Shown: positions 12,426 to 22,914 of the stretch, piece after piece | Numbering within the stretch: the stretch's first letter is position 1 | Layout: each line of letters starts with the position of its first letter | Notes under the pieces: generated by a model | Database searches by the model: none | What the model saw: only the letters and a program-made list of their open reading frames with translations | Told to the model about the DNA's origin: nothing | Assembly: GCA_002709405.1 (NCBI GenBank) | Contig: PAQV01000075.1 | Location: forward strand, 1-37,006 | Length of the DNA: 37,006 nt | Origin: Paracoccaceae bacterium | GTDB lineage: Bacteria > Pseudomonadota > Alphaproteobacteria > Rhodobacterales > Rhodobacteraceae | Direction of reading: 5' to 3' | Made by a program: the position numbers and the translations under genes

Positions 12426-12710
12426 ATGGCATTTTCCCGCGACCAGGCTGAAACCTTTGCCCTGACGGCACTGGGCTGGCTGGCAGGCCATGACGAGCTG
12501 CTGCCGGTCTTCCTGGGTGCGACCGGGGCCAGCCTGTCGGATGTGAAGACCCGGGCGGGGGATGCGGACTTCCTGGGCTCGGTCCTGGATTTCGTGATGA
12601 TGGACGACGCCTGGGTCATCGAGATGTGCGATGCGCTTGCGGTGCCCTACGAGACGGTGCAAACCGCGCGGGCCGGCTTGCCCGGTGGACAACAGGTGCA
12701 TTGGACATGA
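12426..12710 (+). CDS. DUF3572 family protein
   Basis: This 94-residue protein, probably all-helical, begins MAFSRDQAETFALTALGWLAG, the hallmark opening of DUF3572, a small alphaproteobacterial family often found beside pleD. It has no signal peptide, membrane helix or catalytic motif; it contains an acidic mid-section (VLDFVMMDDAWV). It is divergent from the PleD-like gene across 93 bp, and its stop overlaps the next gene's ATG (ATGA), so it is translated with the HAD phosphatase. The function is unknown; conserved proximity to pleD hints at a c-di-GMP or cell-cycle role, which is inference only. Confidence 0.82.
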   Translation: MAFSRDQAETFALTALGWLAGHDELLPVFLGATGASLSDVKTRAGDADFLGSVLDFVMMDDAWVIEMCDALAVPYETVQTARAGLPGGQQVHWT

Positions 12711-13411
12711 CAGACGGCCAGACGGTGCAGGCGGTGCTTTTCGACAAGGATGGCACGCTGTTCGATTTCGCGGGCACGTGGAACGCCTGGTCGATGCAGG
12801 TGCTCGACGATCTGTCCGGGGGCGACGAGGCCCTGGCCGATGCCCTGGCCGCGGCGATCTTGTTCGACCGCCAGGCCGTGACCTTCCTGCCGGGCAGCCC
12901 GGCGATTGCCGGGACCAACGACATGGTGGCCGAGGCCCTGGCCCGCGAATTGCCCGGCCGTGACCCGCGCTCCATCGCGACGTTCCTGGCCGAAAGCGCT
13001 GCCACCGCCCCCCTGTGCGAGGCCGTGCCCCTGGTGCCCCTGCTGGCCGAACTGGCCGCCCGGGGGATCGTGCTGGGCGTTATGACGAACGACCACGAAA
13101 GCTCGGCCCGGGCGCACCTGGCCGCGTCGGGCGTGCTGGAGATGTTCGATTTCGTCGCCGGGGCCGACAGCGGCTATGGGGCCAAGCCGGATCCCGATCC
13201 GCTTTGGGCCTTTTGCGATGCAATGGGGCTGGCCCCCGAGATCGCGGCGATGGTGGGCGACAGCACCCATGACCTGGTTGCCGGGCAGGCGGCGGGCATG
13301 AAGACCGTCGGCGTGCTGACCGGCATGAGCGGGCGCGAAACGCTGGCCCCCTATGCCAACGTGGTCCTGCCCGACATCGGCCATCTGCCGGGCTGGCTGG
13401 ACGGGCGCTAG
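12707..13411 (+). CDS. HAD-superfamily hydrolase, phosphoglycolate-phosphatase-like
   Basis: This 234-residue haloacid dehalogenase-type phosphatase has motif I FDKDGT (nucleophile D13, acid/base D15), motif II Thr in VMTND (about 126), motif III Lys in GAKPDPDP, and motif IV GDSTHD. A helical cap lies at about 20-90, the C1-cap layout of Gph/phosphoglycolate phosphatases. It acts on a small phosphorylated metabolite; phosphoglycolate is the default guess. The DKDGT form (rather than DLDGT) is a known variant. It is coupled to DUF3572 by a 4-nt overlap and followed by a hairpin terminator candidate. Confidence 0.87.
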   Translation: MTDGQTVQAVLFDKDGTLFDFAGTWNAWSMQVLDDLSGGDEALADALAAAILFDRQAVTFLPGSPAIAGTNDMVAEALARELPGRDPRSIATFLAESAATAPLCEAVPLVPLLAELAARGIVLGVMTNDHESSARAHLAASGVLEMFDFVAGADSGYGAKPDPDPLWAFCDAMGLAPEIAAMVGDSTHDLVAGQAAGMKTVGVLTGMSGRETLAPYANVVLPDIGHLPGWLDGR

Positions 13412-13447
13412 GCCCGGACACCTGCGTTTTTCACGATGCGAAGAAGG

Positions 13448-13468
13448 CCGGACAGAGATGCTGTCCGG
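13448..13468 (+). terminator. Hairpin downstream of the HAD phosphatase
   Basis: Perfect 8-bp stem CCGGACAG (13448-13455) / CTGTCCGG (13461-13468) with a 5-nt loop, 36 bp after the HAD stop. No T-tract follows, so termination is likely but not proven; it could also be a leader structure for the downstream methyltransferase. Confidence 0.4.
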
Positions 13469-13624
13469 GGACGGCCTGTGGCGGACCCCGGCATGATCTC
13501 GTGGGAAATCTGATCGAGGAATTGATCCGGATTGGGGGTCAAATGCGACATCCTGCGTCGGGAACGGAGCGGCATGGCGCGGCGGAACGCGGCCTTCTTG
13601 ACGGGTCACGGTCCGGAGACTCCC

Positions 13625-15184
13625 ATGGAAGACGGTCAGGTACGCAGGAAACGCGGTGGAGGGCGGGCAGCCAACAAGGCTCGCCGAGGGGCCGAGGTCA
13701 TCGGCCAGATGCCCTGGCGCATCCCGCGCAACATGGACCGCCCGATCGAGCCTCTGCCGCCCGAAGGCGTGGCCGCGATCCACGAGGGCGCCATGCGGAT
13801 CCTCGAAGAAATCGGCATCGAGTTCTACAATGACGAGGCCCTGGGCCTCTTCCGCGAGGCCGGCTGTTCGGTCGATGGGTCGCTGGTGCGCATGGGCCGC
13901 GACTTCGTCATGGAGATGGTGGCCAAGGCGCCCTCCAGTTTCACCATCACCCCGCGCAACCCGGCCCGCCAGATTAAGATCGGAGGCGACCGGATGCTGT
14001 TCGGCAATGTCTCGTCTCCGCCCAACTACTGGGACCTGGAGCTGGGCCGCAAGGTGCCGGGCACTCGGGCGCAATGCGCCGATCTGCTGCGCCTGACCCA
14101 GTATTTCAACTGCATCCATTTCGCGGGCGGTTACCCGGTGGAACCGGTGGACCTGCATGCCTCGACCCGGCACCTGGACGTGCTGTTCGACAAGCTGACC
14201 CTGACCGACAAGGCGATGCACGCCTATTCGCTGGGCCCCGAGCGGGTCGAGGATGTCATGGAAATGGTGCGGATCGCCGGTGGTCTCAGCCACGAGGAGT
14301 TCGACGCCACGCCCAGGATGTACACCAACATCAACTCGACCTCGCCGCTGAAGCACGACTACCCGATGATCGACGGCTGCCTGCGGCTGGCCCGGCGGGG
14401 ACAGGCGATCGTGGTGTCTCCGTTCACGCTGGCGGGTGCGATGGCGCCGGTGACCATGGCCGGGGCGGTGGCCCAGTCGATTGCCGAGGCGCTGTCGGCC
14501 ATTGCGTTGTTCCAGTACGTGGCGCCGGGAGTGCCCTGCGTGATCGGGACGTTCACGTCCAATGTCGACATGAAATCGGGGGCCCCGGCCTTTGGCACGC
14601 CGGAATACATGCGGTCGACGCAGATGACGGGTCAGATGGCGCGGTTCTACGGCTTGCCCCTGCGGTCGTCGGGGTCCTGCGCGGCGAACGTGCCGGACGG
14701 GCAGGCGGTGTGGGAGACGTCGAATTCGCTGTGGGCGGCGGTGCAGTCGGGGACCCACATGGTCTATCATGCGGCGGGCTGGCTGGAGGGCGGCCTGGTG
14801 GCCAGCCCCGAGAAGTTCATCATGGATTGCGAGATCCTGCAGCAGATCCAGCGCTACATGGAGCCCCAGGTCTGGGCGACAGAGCCCGAGGATATCGCCC
14901 TGGACGCCATTGCCGAGGTCGGCCACCAGGGGCATTTCTTCGGGGTGGGGCACACCCAGGAGCGCTATACCACGGCGTTCTACCAGCCGTTCCTGAGCGA
15001 CTGGCGCAATTTCGAGGCCTGGGAGGCGGCGGGCGCGGTCTGGACGCCGGAACGGGCGCATCTGCTGTTCAAGGAGATCATCGCCCGGTTCGAGCCGCCG
15101 CCCATGGACGCGGCGATCCGCGAGGAACTGGCGGAGTTCGTCGAACGGCGGCGGGCCGAGGGCGGGGCGCCGACGGATTTCTGA
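13625..15184 (+). CDS. MttB-family (non-pyrrolysine) methyltransferase
   Basis: This 519-residue protein of the trimethylamine methyltransferase (MttB, COG5598) superfamily has a basic, disordered N-terminus (1-30) and a TIM-barrel core to about 500. The frame is continuous with no in-frame amber codon, so it lacks pyrrolysine and belongs to the branch that includes glycine-betaine demethylases. Start ATG 13625 has GGAGAC just upstream; an in-frame ATG at 13574 would add 17 residues. No corrinoid protein or activase gene is nearby, so any methyl acceptor must be encoded elsewhere. The link to the carnitine-to-betaine operon 9 kb away is suggestive only. It stands alone in its transcript. Confidence 0.85.
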   Translation: MEDGQVRRKRGGGRAANKARRGAEVIGQMPWRIPRNMDRPIEPLPPEGVAAIHEGAMRILEEIGIEFYNDEALGLFREAGCSVDGSLVRMGRDFVMEMVAKAPSSFTITPRNPARQIKIGGDRMLFGNVSSPPNYWDLELGRKVPGTRAQCADLLRLTQYFNCIHFAGGYPVEPVDLHASTRHLDVLFDKLTLTDKAMHAYSLGPERVEDVMEMVRIAGGLSHEEFDATPRMYTNINSTSPLKHDYPMIDGCLRLARRGQAIVVSPFTLAGAMAPVTMAGAVAQSIAEALSAIALFQYVAPGVPCVIGTFTSNVDMKSGAPAFGTPEYMRSTQMTGQMARFYGLPLRSSGSCAANVPDGQAVWETSNSLWAAVQSGTHMVYHAAGWLEGGLVASPEKFIMDCEILQQIQRYMEPQVWATEPEDIALDAIAEVGHQGHFFGVGHTQERYTTAFYQPFLSDWRNFEAWEAAGAVWTPERAHLLFKEIIARFEPPPMDAAIREELAEFVERRRAEGGAPTDF

Positions 15185-15374: not shown

Positions 15375-17129
15375 ATGAGCTGGTTTCCGGGATCCGAGAT
15401 CTTTCGGCATCGGCTGGGCATGGCCCTGCTGGGCGGGCTTGCGTTCAGTGCGCTCTGGGCGCTGACCGAGGCCGAGGGGTTGCGCGACAGCGCGCCGGGC
15501 CTGTTCCTGTTGCTGATCGCCGGGCTGTCGTGCTGGTCGGCGGTGTCCCTGGCCATCTCCGGGCCGGTGTCGCTGTCCCGGTCCATGGTCGGGGCGCTGG
15601 TCCTGGCCGTGCCGGTCGCCGGGTTGATGCGCCTGGCGGGGCTTAGGGCGCTGGTGCCGACGGATGTGCTGGAGTCCCCGGGCGTGTTGGCCGTCTTCCT
15701 GCTGATGGTCTTCGTGGCCACGCCCTTCCTGGCCGTGCGCCTTCAGGGCAGGGGGCCCTGGCTGTCCTACCCCGCCCTGTTCGAGACCGCCTGGGCCATC
15801 ACCATCCGCTTCGCCGCGGGGATGCTCTTTGCCGGCGTGGTCTGGGGCGTCCTGCTGCTGTCCGATGCCCTTTTGGGGATCGTCGGCATCGACCTGATCG
15901 GAGGCCTCCTGGACATCGACGGCGTACCCGCCCTGGTCAGCGGGGCGGCGCTTGGCCTGGGCATCGCGGTGATCCACGAGCTGCGCGAGGTCGTGTCGCC
16001 CTTGCTGGTGTTGCGCCTGTTCCGCCTGCTGGTCTGGCCGGTGCTGATCGTGGTCGGTGTCTTCCTGGTGGCCGTGCCGGTGCAGGGCCTGTCGGGCCTG
16101 GTGGGCAGCCTGTCTCCGGCGGCGACCCTGATGGGCGTGGCGCTGGGGGCGGTGACGCTGATCACCTCGGCCGTGGGGCGGGCCGATGACGAGGCGATGG
16201 AGGCCGAGCTTGGCCCGCGCCTTTTGGCCCTGGCGGTGCCCGTCGTGGCCGGTCTGGCGGTGCTGGCCGTGGTCCTGCGGGTCAGCCAGTACGGGTGGAC
16301 CCCGGACCGGGTGATGGCCGCCACGGTGGCCGGTGTCACGCTGCTTTACGGCCTGGCCTATGGCGCGGCAGCACTGCGCGGTGCGGGGCGCTGGCGGGCC
16401 CCTCTGCGCCGGGCCAATGTCGTCCTGGCGCTATTGGTCATTGCCGTCTGTGCCGCCTGGCTGACGCCCCTGCTGGATGCCGGTCGCCTGTCGGCCCGCA
16501 GCCAGGTCGCGCGCTTTGCAGACGGGCGGTCGACCCTGGACCAGCTGCCGCTGGACCGCATGGTTCGGGACTGGGGCAAGGCCGGGCACGATGCTCTGGA
16601 CCGACTGGAGGCGATGACCGAGCATCCCGATCACGATGCCCTCGTGCGCGAAATCGAGGCCGCACGGCGCAAGCCCACGCTGCGGCAGGCGACGACCGAT
16701 GCGGTGGACCTGGACCCGATCGCCCTGGCCCGGGACCTGGCCCAGTGGGTGCCGGTCCGCCCCGATGGCCAGCTCGACCCGGATGCCCTGGCGCGCGTGC
16801 AGCTTTACTGGTTGAGCGACTGGCACGTCCGCTGCCGGCCGCTGGAGGACGGACCCCCGCCATGTGTCTTCGTGCACGGCCGGTTCGTGGCCGACCTGCC
16901 CGCAAAGGACCAGGGGCTTTTGGTGCTGCCCTATGGGCCGAACCAGCTGCTGGCCCAACATCTGCGCTGGCCCACAGCAGAGATCACGACAATCGAAACC
17001 TCGGACGCCTTGCCCGAAGACGCCGTTGCGCGCATTCTGGACGGGGATTTCGCACTTGCCCCCGTGCAGACCGAAGCGCTCGAGCTTGGCGGTCAGGTGT
17101 TCGGCCCGGGCCTGAGGCAACCGGAATAG
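15375..17129 (+). CDS. DUF4153 polytopic membrane protein
   Basis: This 584-residue protein has about a dozen predicted membrane helices between residues 15 and 380, then a soluble C-terminal domain (about 385-584) rich in charged residues. This matches the DUF4153 family (PF13687). The function is unknown. AGGAG lies upstream of the ATG. The soluble tail holds two Cys (CRPLEDGPPPC), possibly a disulfide if periplasmic. It is monocistronic in context: 190 bp after the methyltransferase and 130 bp before the H-NOX gene, all on the plus strand. Nothing in the sequence links it to its neighbours. Confidence 0.8.
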   Translation: MSWFPGSEIFRHRLGMALLGGLAFSALWALTEAEGLRDSAPGLFLLLIAGLSCWSAVSLAISGPVSLSRSMVGALVLAVPVAGLMRLAGLRALVPTDVLESPGVLAVFLLMVFVATPFLAVRLQGRGPWLSYPALFETAWAITIRFAAGMLFAGVVWGVLLLSDALLGIVGIDLIGGLLDIDGVPALVSGAALGLGIAVIHELREVVSPLLVLRLFRLLVWPVLIVVGVFLVAVPVQGLSGLVGSLSPAATLMGVALGAVTLITSAVGRADDEAMEAELGPRLLALAVPVVAGLAVLAVVLRVSQYGWTPDRVMAATVAGVTLLYGLAYGAAALRGAGRWRAPLRRANVVLALLVIAVCAAWLTPLLDAGRLSARSQVARFADGRSTLDQLPLDRMVRDWGKAGHDALDRLEAMTEHPDHDALVREIEAARRKPTLRQATTDAVDLDPIALARDLAQWVPVRPDGQLDPDALARVQLYWLSDWHVRCRPLEDGPPPCVFVHGRFVADLPAKDQGLLVLPYGPNQLLAQHLRWPTAEITTIETSDALPEDAVARILDGDFALAPVQTEALELGGQVFGPGLRQPE

Positions 17130-17259: not shown

Positions 17260-17847
17260 ATGCATGGTTTGATCAACAGGGCGATACAATCCTTCGTCTG
17301 CAATACCTATGGAACGGACCGCTGGCACAGCGTGACCGAAGATGCCGGCCTTGGCTTTTCGGAATTCGAGGCGATGCTGATCTATGACGATGCCCAGACC
17401 GACGCGGTGATGCGGGCGGTCTGCATCGAACTCGGCCGCCCGGAAAGCGAGGTGCTGGAAGACCTCGGCACCTACCTGGTGTCCGATCCCAAGGTCGAGG
17501 CCCTGCGCCGCCTGCTGCGCTTCGGGGGCGAGACGTTCCAGGACTTTCTGCATTCGCTGGACGAATTGCCCGAACGGGCGCGCCTGGCGGTATCGGACCT
17601 GCACCTGCCGCCGCTGGAGCTGCGCGACGTGACGGCCCACCAGTTCAGCCTGGTCTGCGGGCGTGGGCTGCGGGGCTATGGCCGGGTGATGATGGGCATT
17701 CTGCGGGCCATGGCGGATGATTACGGGGCGCTGGTCTACCTGGAACACAGCGGTTGCCACGAGGCCGGAGAGATCATTTCCATCACCCTGGTCGAGGCCG
17801 ACTTTGCCGCCGGGCGCGATTTCGACCTGGGGGCGCGGGCCGGATGA
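17260..17847 (+). CDS. H-NOX (heme-NO-binding fold) protein lacking the proximal heme His
   Basis: This 195-residue protein spans the whole H-NOX (HNOB) domain. Family segments are the N-terminal MHGLINRAIQSF, EDLGTYLV (67-74), RRLLRFGG (83-90) and FLHSLDEL (96-103). Where H-NOX proteins carry the proximal heme ligand (H102 in the Thermoanaerobacter protein, H105 in soluble guanylate cyclase), this protein has Pro104 (LDELPERAR). The YxSxR heme-propionate motif reads L131-V-C133-G-R135, so only Arg is kept. Canonical heme binding is therefore unlikely, though an alternative ligand cannot be excluded. The stop overlaps the GGDEF start (ATGA), matching the classical H-NOX/diguanylate cyclase pairing. 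A single base change (CAC to CCC) would explain Pro104. Confidence 0.85.
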   Translation: MHGLINRAIQSFVCNTYGTDRWHSVTEDAGLGFSEFEAMLIYDDAQTDAVMRAVCIELGRPESEVLEDLGTYLVSDPKVEALRRLLRFGGETFQDFLHSLDELPERARLAVSDLHLPPLELRDVTAHQFSLVCGRGLRGYGRVMMGILRAMADDYGALVYLEHSGCHEAGEIISITLVEADFAAGRDFDLGARAG

Positions 17848-18905
17848 CACCGGACGAAGACCTGGCCGATGTGCTGTCGATCCTGTGCCCGATGCATGTA
17901 ACGCTGGACGCGGCCGGCCACGTGGTGCGCGCCGGGCCGACCTTGCAGAAACTGCGGCCCGACATGCCCTTCGAACGGCAGCGCTTCCTAGACCTGTTCG
18001 AACTGATCCGCCCGCGCTCCGTCGCCGCGGTCGAGGACCTTTTCGGCGCGCCGCGTACCAAGCTGCGCCTGCAATTCCGCGACGTGCCGCGCACCGGGTT
18101 CAAGGGCGTTCTGGTGCCGCTGCCCGATGCCCGGGGGGCGATCATCAACCTGTCCTTCGGGTTCTCGGTGCTGGACGCGGTGCGCGATTACGCCCTGACC
18201 AGCGCCGATTTCTCTGCCACCGACCTGACCATTGAAATGCTCTACCTGGTCGAAGCCAAGTCCGCCGCGATGGAGGCCTCGCGGTCCCTGAACGCGCGCC
18301 TGCAGGGCGCGATGATCGCGGCCGAGGAACAGGCCTTTACCGACACGCTGACCGGGCTGAAAAACCGCCGGGCGCTGGATCACGTGCTGGACAGGCTGAT
18401 GACCGCCCGCCGGCCCTTCGCGGTGATGCAGCTGGACCTGGATTTCTTCAAGGCGGTGAACGACACCCACGGCCATGCGGCGGGCGACCATGTGTTGCAA
18501 CAGGTGGCGCGGGCCATGGTCTCGGAGACCCGCGAAAGCGACACGGTGGCCCGGGTTGGCGGCGATGAATTCGTGCTGATCTTTGACCGGCTGTGCGACG
18601 GGCCGCGTCTGGATGCCATCGCAGAACGGCTGATCGCGGGGGTCACCGCGCCGATCCTTTACGGGGGTGTGTCCTGCCAGGTTTCGGCCAGTATCGGCAG
18701 CGCGTTTTTCGGCGGGGCAGAGGACATGACGGCGACCGATCTGCTGGCGCGGGCTGATGCCGCGCTTTATGCCGCCAAACATGCCGGGCGGTCGCGGCAC
18801 TTTCTGTACGACGGCGCGCAGCACGCGCCGGTGCCGGGCTCGGCCGTGGGGCACGGCGCGCCCGATGCACCGGATAAACCGGACGGGCAGGGCGCGCCTG
18901 TGTGA
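17844..18905 (+). CDS. H-NOBA/GGDEF diguanylate cyclase partner of H-NOX
   Basis: This 353-residue protein has three parts: an N-terminal H-NOX-associated, PAS-like (H-NOBA) domain (about 5-130, with FLDLFELIRPR at 48-58), a coiled-coil signalling helix (about 131-165), and a GGDEF domain (about 166-325). The active site is intact (GGDEF 239-243), as are the inhibitory I-site RESD (R230/D233) and the metal-binding DLD near 198. It should make c-di-GMP under control of the partner H-NOX protein, with which it is translationally coupled. The last ~25 residues (Ala/Pro/Gly/Asp-rich) are encoded by the edge of a degenerate tandem repeat that continues past the stop. The enzyme looks functional although its partner seems unable to bind heme normally. 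Confidence 0.87.
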   Translation: MTPDEDLADVLSILCPMHVTLDAAGHVVRAGPTLQKLRPDMPFERQRFLDLFELIRPRSVAAVEDLFGAPRTKLRLQFRDVPRTGFKGVLVPLPDARGAIINLSFGFSVLDAVRDYALTSADFSATDLTIEMLYLVEAKSAAMEASRSLNARLQGAMIAAEEQAFTDTLTGLKNRRALDHVLDRLMTARRPFAVMQLDLDFFKAVNDTHGHAAGDHVLQQVARAMVSETRESDTVARVGGDEFVLIFDRLCDGPRLDAIAERLIAGVTAPILYGGVSCQVSASIGSAFFGGAEDMTATDLLARADAALYAAKHAGRSRHFLYDGAQHAPVPGSAVGHGAPDAPDKPDGQGAPV

Positions 18906-20976: not shown

Positions 20977-22914
20977 TCAGTCCGATTCCATCGCCATCAT
21001 CTGGGCGGGCATGGCCTCGGCGGGCTCCATCTTGGGCTTGTCGGGCACGACCTTGCCGGCCTGTGCGGCCTGCATCGAGGTGCCCTCGGGGTAGAGGAAG
21101 CTTTGCGGAGGCTCGAAGGGCGATTTCAGGTCGGGTTCGGTCGACAGGGCACGGTCCCACAATTGCGGGCGCAGGGCCAGAAGCCCGGCCGCCAGCATCT
21201 GCCCGGCAGACTTGCCGTATTCCTTGGCGGCCATGCGGTAGAGAGACGGATCTTCCCACCATTTCAGCAGCTTCAGCGCCTTGTTGCGCATCCAAGCCGT
21301 CCTGTACAGGTGCCGGGCGATCAGCTTGCCCCGGTTGATGTCCTCGGACCGGAAATAGTTGAAGGGCACCGCTTCGTTGAACATCGACGGCGTGCGCCGG
21401 ATGATTTCCTGCGGATCCATGGTGTCGGCCAGCTTGTCCAGCACCATCGGGAACGGGTAGACAGGGGGCTGCATTTCCTTGTCGTGCCGGTGGATCAGCC
21501 GGCCCTGCTGGCGGATCGCTCCGGCGTTCAGGAACGCGCCGACCATGTAGTTGGGCATGGCATAGGTGAAATAGCCCATGTTGGTGACCACCAGCGTCCA
21601 GGCCATTTTCACCGGATCGTCCATGATGTGATACCAATGCGACCATTCATCCTGCAGCGCCAGCTGGGTTTTCACATGCGATTCCAGCGTGATCGCATAG
21701 CGTTCCGACAATTGGCCCGCCTGCGATTTCTTGATCATCGAGGTGATCTGGGGGATCTGGTTGGCCAGGTAGGCAATCCCGGCCGAGTTCGCCGGATCGA
21801 AGGTGAAGGCGCTGTCGCCCAGCAGGAACCAGCGGCCCTGGTGATCGTAGTACTGCTTGGCCTCGTACATGTAGTTGTAGTAGCGCGCTTCATCGACCTT
21901 GCGGCCGCTTTCGATCATCTCGACCAGCTTGGGGTGATCGCGGCCCAGGACGGCCAGCAGGCGGTCCATGTTCATGGCCTTTTCGCCCGCGACCTCGGGG
22001 CGGTAGGTGATCCCGATGCTGACCATGTCTTCGCCGGTCTCGCATTTCATCGGGATGATCCAGATCCAGTATCCCTTGCCGTAGAAATGGTGGGTCACGT
22101 AGTAGCTGTCGAAGCTGTTCTGCTTGTCCTTGACCACCGGCAGTTCCATCAGGATGCGGCGGTCGAACCCGGCCAGGCGGAACCAGTAGGCGCAGCGCTG
22201 GAAGGGCGGGTCCTGGTGCAGGTCCAGCTGCTTGGTCAGCACCCGGGCCCGGCCCGAGCTGTCGATGACGTGGTCGGCCTTCAGCTCGATCATGTCGCCG
22301 TCGTTGGTGGCGATGTTGATCGTCTGCGGCCCAGGCGTCGCGCCCATGGTCGCATCGCCCTTCATCGGCGCCATGCGCATCGACTTCTTCTTCATCATGG
22401 GTTTCTTCATGGACATTTTGTCGTCCATCTTGCCCATGTCGGCCTTCATCATGTCGGTGCCGCCCATCATGTCGTCCATGATCGGGGCCGTGGGCGCGCC
22501 GCCGGCAAAGTCCACGCCGACGACCTTGCCCGAAATGCGGGTCACGCTGTCGGGGATGCGCCGGTCGATTTCCTCGTCGAAGGCATGGCGGTTCAGGTTG
22601 AAGGCCAGCAGCCGTTTCACGCCCGGAGATTCGTGGCGGATATAGTCCGGCGTCTCCATGTCGCCGTCCTGCTTTGGCAGCTTGAAGTAATAGGTCAGCC
22701 CGTATTTGTGCAGGTGCTGTTCTTCAAGGTAGGATGCCAGGCCCAGCGAAGCCAGGAACTGTGTGGTCACCTCGACCGTGCTCTCGCCCACGACCGGCAG
22801 GTTCGGGTCGCCGGGGTCGATCATGGTGATGGAGGCTTCCGGCAAGTGCCGGACGAAATAAAGAGCAGCCAGTTTTCCGGCCAGCCCGCCTCCGATGATG
22901 GCAATCTGTGTCAT
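20977..22914 (-). CDS. Flavin-dependent-halogenase-like oxidoreductase with Met-rich insertion
   Basis: This 645-residue protein has an FAD-binding GGGLAGKLAALY start (about 8-19), GEST at 43-46 and WIWIIP at 283-288, which fits the WxWxIP motif of flavin-dependent (tryptophan) halogenases, so the PF04820-type fold is likely. A Lys near 78 (YYFKLPK) may match the catalytic Lys, but this is uncertain. Between about 144 and 192 there is a low-complexity insertion with 15 Met and 9 Lys plus many Asp, and the last 18 residues are again Met-rich. There is no signal peptide. AAGGGA precedes the ATG. Halogenation is not assured: many relatives lack it. No biosynthetic cluster surrounds it. Confidence 0.8.
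   Translation of the reverse strand: MTQIAIIGGGLAGKLAALYFVRHLPEASITMIDPGDPNLPVVGESTVEVTTQFLASLGLASYLEEQHLHKYGLTYYFKLPKQDGDMETPDYIRHESPGVKRLLAFNLNRHAFDEEIDRRIPDSVTRISGKVVGVDFAGGAPTAPIMDDMMGGTDMMKADMGKMDDKMSMKKPMMKKKSMRMAPMKGDATMGATPGPQTINIATNDGDMIELKADHVIDSSGRARVLTKQLDLHQDPPFQRCAYWFRLAGFDRRILMELPVVKDKQNSFDSYYVTHHFYGKGYWIWIIPMKCETGEDMVSIGITYRPEVAGEKAMNMDRLLAVLGRDHPKLVEMIESGRKVDEARYYNYMYEAKQYYDHQGRWFLLGDSAFTFDPANSAGIAYLANQIPQITSMIKKSQAGQLSERYAITLESHVKTQLALQDEWSHWYHIMDDPVKMAWTLVVTNMGYFTYAMPNYMVGAFLNAGAIRQQGRLIHRHDKEMQPPVYPFPMVLDKLADTMDPQEIIRRTPSMFNEAVPFNYFRSEDINRGKLIARHLYRTAWMRNKALKLLKWWEDPSLYRMAAKEYGKSAGQMLAAGLLALRPQLWDRALSTEPDLKSPFEPPQSFLYPEGTSMQAAQAGKVVPDKPKMEPAEAMPAQMMAMESD

Follow-up and report, generated by a model that had tools for sequence, protein, structure and literature searches.

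An H-NOX-like protein without the proximal histidine and its overlapping diguanylate cyclase gene in Rhodobacterales

A stretch of 37,006 nucleotides from a Paracoccaceae bacterium, referred to below as the window, was found to encode an H-NOX-like protein in which the heme-binding proximal histidine is replaced by proline, followed by an overlapping gene for a diguanylate cyclase. With a probability of about 0.6, we interpret the two genes as a Rhodobacterales 'group 5' H-NOX and its diguanylate cyclase, in which the heme-ligand-less protein restrains the cyclase. The pair is conserved under purifying selection. Given the missing histidine, the intact cyclase and the selection acting on the pair, the protein is most likely an H-NOX regulator that works without heme or without classical heme ligation. 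To this extent the converted sensor proposed in the original prediction is retained, whereas sequence does not distinguish among the inputs suggested for it (another ligand, a different heme ligand or a purely protein-based switch). The novelty suggested for such a branch is not supported, as a histidine-less and mostly proline-bearing group has already been described (PMC8738867) and the loss has also been reported elsewhere (PMC5588039).

The H-NOX-like protein and its missing heme ligand

The first gene of the pair (17260..17847 on the forward strand, stop codon included) encodes a protein of 195 aa that matches the Pfam HNOB profile at 80.1 bits against a cut-off of 25.5, with profile positions 1-159 of 163 covered. 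No second HNOB match was found in the 103 contigs searched of the window's genome. An AlphaFold model built with 62 of 73 relatives (pLDDT 84.7, pTM 0.82) has a predicted H-NOX fold, with the Nostoc H-NOX structure 3tf8 as its best PDB match (TM 0.80 by query length, E 1.6e-13) and sGC beta as the next, and profile and predicted fold together bear out the H-NOX family context originally assigned to the protein. The beta-1 subunit of sGC keeps both the proximal histidine and the YxSxR motif. Nostoc H-NOX, which resembles the window protein in fold and is alignable with it in sequence, likewise retains both, unlike the window protein.

The codon CCC at 17569..17571 (+) encodes Pro104, which aligns with His105 of Nostoc Alr2278 and with the proximal histidine of D. 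shibae H-NOX (LDELPERARLAV in the window against LDDLHDRARLAV in D. shibae), as had been predicted for this residue. In the predicted model Pro104 lies inside a long helix spanning residues 93-110. The stretch aligned with YxSxR is C133-G-R135-G-L137 (17656..17670, +), where the Tyr, Ser and Arg of the motif fall on C133, R135 and L137 and none of the three is kept; the earlier placement of the motif at L131-V-C133-G-R135 was two residues off. Judged by the hallmarks of heme-based NO- or O2-sensing H-NOX proteins, the window protein thus has Pro104 in place of the proximal histidine and C133-G-R135-G-L137 in place of the propionate-binding motif. With the axial ligand and the propionate-binding motif both lost, its sequence indicates that it most likely does not sense NO via a His-ligated heme.

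A change of one base, CAC to CCC, would suffice to turn histidine into proline, and a sequencing error of this kind had been named as a possible refutation. However, the histidine is also absent from 72 of 73 close relatives from other genomes, the frame is intact and the gene is under purifying selection, and on these grounds sequencing error or a decaying gene was ruled out, its probability being negligible. Pairwise dN/dS over the first 180 codons of the H-NOX gene was ~0.17 between the window and L032 (Marinibacterium profundimaris) and ~0.27 between the window and L270.

Distribution of the histidine among relatives

A scan of genome contigs recovered 74 named loci, of which the incomplete L104 was left out to give the 73 relatives. 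At the column of Pro104 these carry Pro (58), Ser (11), and Asn, Ala, Thr and His (one each). A Ruegeria-rich clade has Ser at this position (L061, L065, L068, L071, L075, L076, L079, L082, L084 and L101), with Thr in L067. The sole histidine belongs to L095 (Sulfitobacter sp. F26204), which is placed within a Pro clade and possibly regained the heme ligand.

At the level of the window's family, the HNOB profile was matched in 296 of 394 genomes and the D. shibae H-NOX by 287 of 394. We read 158 distinct orthologs, a set spanning 157 genomes at about one per genus, with ~130 further matching genomes outside the count. They came from the better of the listed matches, the query being either the HNOB profile or the D. 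shibae protein with its histidine, so that histidine is more likely to be over-counted than under-counted. Dropped before the counts were L107 (a plasmid piece), L115 (a heme-type H-NOX) and L117 (G271:C24), an ortholog that has the histidine but also a TAA stop interrupting its frame, after which 10 duplicates were removed (168 to 158). The residue count across aligned relatives, put forward as a check in the original prediction, revealed that histidine is absent in 142 of the 158 orthologs as well, with Pro in 116 of these 142. The remaining residues are His (16), Gln (5), Arg (4), Ser, Asn, Gly and Ala (3 each) and Tyr, Asp, Glu, Thr and Lys (1 each). Beyond the family, a profile of the window's kin matched nine of 385 genomes of the window's class, five from the window's own family and four from other families, and all four of the latter have the histidine. 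Within this class sample, and at the sensitivity of the kin profile, the His-less form thus appeared only in the window's family.

The full YxSxR motif was found in none of the 158 orthologs, the 16 His-bearing ones included, so that its loss alone says little about heme; we accordingly rejected motif loss as a sign of heme loss. The D. shibae protein keeps only the Arg of the motif, having lost Tyr and Ser, and the same Arg is also kept in 10 non-His orthologs. Besides column 104, His and non-His orthologs were separated only at positions 8, 71, 80, 118 and 135 (uncorrected p ~0.002 or less). So few differences suggest that the pocket has not been visibly rebuilt and that some heme binding is possible.

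These observations bear on an alternative in which the window protein still binds heme, through another or no strong protein ligand, and remains a sensor of NO or another gas. In its favour are the retention of the H-NOX fold in the predicted model, the small number of differing columns, and the absence of the motif Tyr and Ser from the D. shibae ortholog, a reported NO sensor. On the other hand, the replacing residue is mostly Pro and otherwise Gln, Arg, Ser, Asn, Gly or Ala, and with a single Tyr and a single Lys among the 142 non-His orthologs no one substitute ligand is conserved at this column. The sole frequent histidine on the Pro104 helix, H98 (95 of 142 non-His orthologs), is six residues from column 104 and should face elsewhere. 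Overall we regard retention of heme as unlikely.

A second alternative is a thiol switch, in which C133, occupying the position of the Tyr in YxSxR, would respond to oxidants or, through S-nitrosylation, to NO. Cysteine occupies this column in 63 of the 73 close relatives and 98 of the 158 orthologs, and the heme-free H-NOX of Vibrio cholerae responds to oxidation via Cys (PMC7108781, PMC8738867). However, the disulfides of V. cholerae form at a zinc site rather than at a single Cys, and group 5 as a whole has no conserved Cys according to the review (PMC8738867), whereas among the closer kin of the window C133 is frequent but not universal. Cys is absent from the column in 60 of the 158 orthologs, and P. 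denitrificans has Ala there. A switch at C133 is consequently improbable.

Four further residues, E67, D68, L73 and R83, are shared by all 16 His orthologs and by at least 140 of the 142 without His, and none of them occurs in any of the three outgroup sequences, all His-bearing; this is the pattern expected of a putative family-specific partner surface. R84 and R87 show the same invariance within the family, but one outgroup sequence has R84 and two have R87.

Evolution of the loss and a possible association with NO production

A tree of the 158 orthologs requires at least 12 changes between His and non-His, of which supported branches force only two, and a topology holding the 16 His orthologs and the three outgroup rows on one side of a branch was not rejected (AU p 0.43). 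Many independent losses are thus not upheld, and a single loss of the histidine is possible. A second tree, with 93 rows, combined the window and the 73 named relatives with the 16 His orthologs and the three outgroup rows; in it most His rows lay near the outgroup and L095 shared a starred clade with eight Pro rows. This is a hint, from a quick tree with long branches and chosen rows, that histidine was ancestral and was regained once.

Genes for NO-producing nitrite reductases (nirS or nirK) were present in nine of 16 His genomes versus 18 of 64 non-His genomes (Fisher p 0.042), the 64 being the first in the list as opposed to a random draw. Taken separately, nirS gave p 0.041 and nirK p 0.41, and p became 0.076 if a nirS-like fragment in G256 was counted. 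Genomes were scored as nirS-positive when they matched cytochrome d1 at E < 1e-90 (18 of 40 with any match) and as nirK-positive when they scored above the curated cut-off (10 of 47). Controlling for the tree left only two independent pairs on supported branches, which decide nothing, and we see in these data no more than a weak hint that the histidine is kept where NO is made. The 18 non-His genomes with nirS or nirK indicate that some hosts of the His-less form make NO, a point in favour of retained heme; in the window's genome, counting against it, nirS was not found and no nirK scored above the cut-off.

The adjoining cyclase and its gene neighbourhood

The second gene (17844..18905, +) encodes a diguanylate cyclase of 353 aa, for which Pfam and an AlphaFold model (pLDDT 90.1, pTM 0.61) indicate an HNOBA-like N-terminus, predicted as mixed helix and strand, a long helix at residues 128-164 and a GGDEF domain. 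The Pfam GGDEF match scored 137.3 bits. The HNOBA match (22.9 bits) was slightly below the Pfam cut-off of 23.4, compared with 31.5 bits for D. shibae Dgc1, and HNOBA was matched at E <= 0.001 by 43 of 49 cyclases scanned, the window's among the 43. An intact HNOBA domain is therefore likely but marginal in this protein, and of the intact H-NOBA/GGDEF cyclase originally described the GGDEF part stands firmly while the H-NOBA part is borderline. Other elements of that description were recovered as stated: the GGDEF active-site motif (18558..18572, +), the RxxD inhibitory site (I-site; RESD, 18531..18542, +) and a 4-bp overlap of the two genes, ATGA (17844..17847, +). In an alignment of 49 cyclases, the window's and those of 48 of the 73 relatives, GGDEF and R230 were invariant and D233 nearly so.

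This arrangement is strongly conserved. The cyclase is the next gene after the H-NOX gene in all 156 loci of the 158-ortholog set with room to test, and these adjoining cyclases have GGDEF in 156 and RxxD in 153 cases. Among the 73 named relatives the cyclase adjoins in every locus, with GGDEF in 73 and RxxD in 72, and the identical 4-bp overlap occurs in 65.

Retention of the cyclase, along with the predicted fold and selection on the protein, would also fit a reading in which the signal is another small molecule, such as a lipid or a different hydrophobic compound, bound in the vacated pocket. A Nostoc H-NOX structure has, according to its title, the drug BAY 60-2770 bound (4iae); we take the drug to sit in the heme pocket. 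We consider such a ligand distinctly improbable as the signal of the window protein.

Upstream of the pair, a hydrophobic, probably membrane protein (15375..17129, +) is possibly linked to it, D. shibae having a homolog at the same place with 37% identity. This upstream protein had no Pfam match, and its D. shibae homolog scored slightly below the DUF4153 cut-off. Of the 151 loci in the 158-ortholog set that could be tested, only 60 have a homolog of it upstream, as do 20 of the 73 named relatives, and the protein is thus not an obligate part of the pair. Genes for a HAD hydrolase and an MttB-like trimethylamine methyltransferase also lie upstream of the pair (12626-15184, +), as noted for L288, and on a plasmid of Phaeobacter sp. 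G2 the H-NOX and cyclase genes are likewise preceded by a HAD and MttB pair. On the opposite strand, 20977-22914 (-) encodes a tryptophan-halogenase-like flavoprotein, matched best by PF04820 over residues 3-64 and containing a conspicuous Met/Asp/Lys-rich insert.

Relationship to characterised systems

A 2022 review distinguishes a fifth, very large H-NOX cluster ('group 5'), seeded with the P. denitrificans protein, in which the proximal histidine occurs in <10% of members and most have Pro (PMC8738867). By tblastn, the P. denitrificans H-NOX (Pden_3719) and the window protein are 36.3% identical, with 97% of the query aligned (E 2e-27), and Pro at the proximal His column was confirmed in its record; our assignment to group 5 is based on this similarity and this residue, not on the network of the review (edges at E < 1e-47). 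As in the window, its gene overlaps that of a GGDEF cyclase. The window pair is therefore an ordinary member of a group already in print (PMC8738867, PMC5588039).

The absence of the histidine from the H-NOX proteins of P. denitrificans and R. sphaeroides has been reported, together with a partial biofilm deficiency of the P. denitrificans hnoX mutant and biofilm overproduction by a dgcAB mutant (PMC5588039). These genetics fit, by analogy, an H-NOX that would oppose its cyclase without the histidine. The same authors propose that NO acts via the His-less H-NOX, and NO stimulated biofilm in hnoX mutants also (PMC5588039); c-di-GMP in P. denitrificans was reported to be below detection (PMC12582929).

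A closer counterpart is the D. shibae pair (Dshi_2815/Dgc1), which shares with the window orthologous H-NOX (47% identity), cyclase (47%) and upstream (37%) genes and a degenerate YxSxR, and differs from it in keeping the proximal histidine and the motif Arg. Its H-NOX is the only such match in the genome of D. shibae DFL 12. The protein is reported to bind NO and to inhibit Dgc1 (PMC7232146, PMC8846402), the inhibition being described as NO-dependent, and the pair is listed among NO sensors in c-di-GMP networks (PMC8846402). The reported NO biochemistry thus comes from a member of the His-bearing minority, and a response to NO should not be assumed for the other members without testing.

Proposed mechanism and implications

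In His-bearing H-NOX proteins, NO breaks or weakens the Fe-His bond and thereby shifts the protein to its signalling state. Under our preferred reading, the window protein would instead serve as a protein partner that restrains the cyclase encoded by the overlapping gene, probably via the HNOBA-like domain of the latter. We infer a heme-free protein that would inhibit the cyclase directly in the window's organism and that, having no Fe-His bond, would rest in the inhibitory state by default, with control exerted by its abundance or by some other presumed input. An H103G H-NOX structure is among the fold matches of the window model. A partial parallel is provided by the sGC alpha subunit, whose H-NOX domain no longer carries heme but has been retained in a regulatory or structural role; it differs from the window protein in being eukaryotic, fused and part of a heterodimer with a heme-bearing beta subunit.

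More broadly, we propose only tentatively that in most Rhodobacterales carrying the pair a heme NO sensor has become a heme-less regulator, responding to another signal via the pocket or the partner surface, while rare lineages kept or regained the histidine. The present study contributes a count at about one genome per genus, the contrast with D. shibae, the frequency of C133, and the finding that almost every tested locus has the cyclase together with its I-site. Sequence records label members of the group 'heme NO-binding', yet the heme ligand is missing from some 90% of the orthologs that were read. The review gives the input signal of group 5 proteins as unknown and poses what they sense as an open question (PMC8738867). 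Naturally occurring orthologs that share this cyclase partner but carry either His or Pro offer a clean test of H-NOX signalling without heme. If the proposed conversion is true, NO control of c-di-GMP in D. shibae would be the exception for the group and not the rule.
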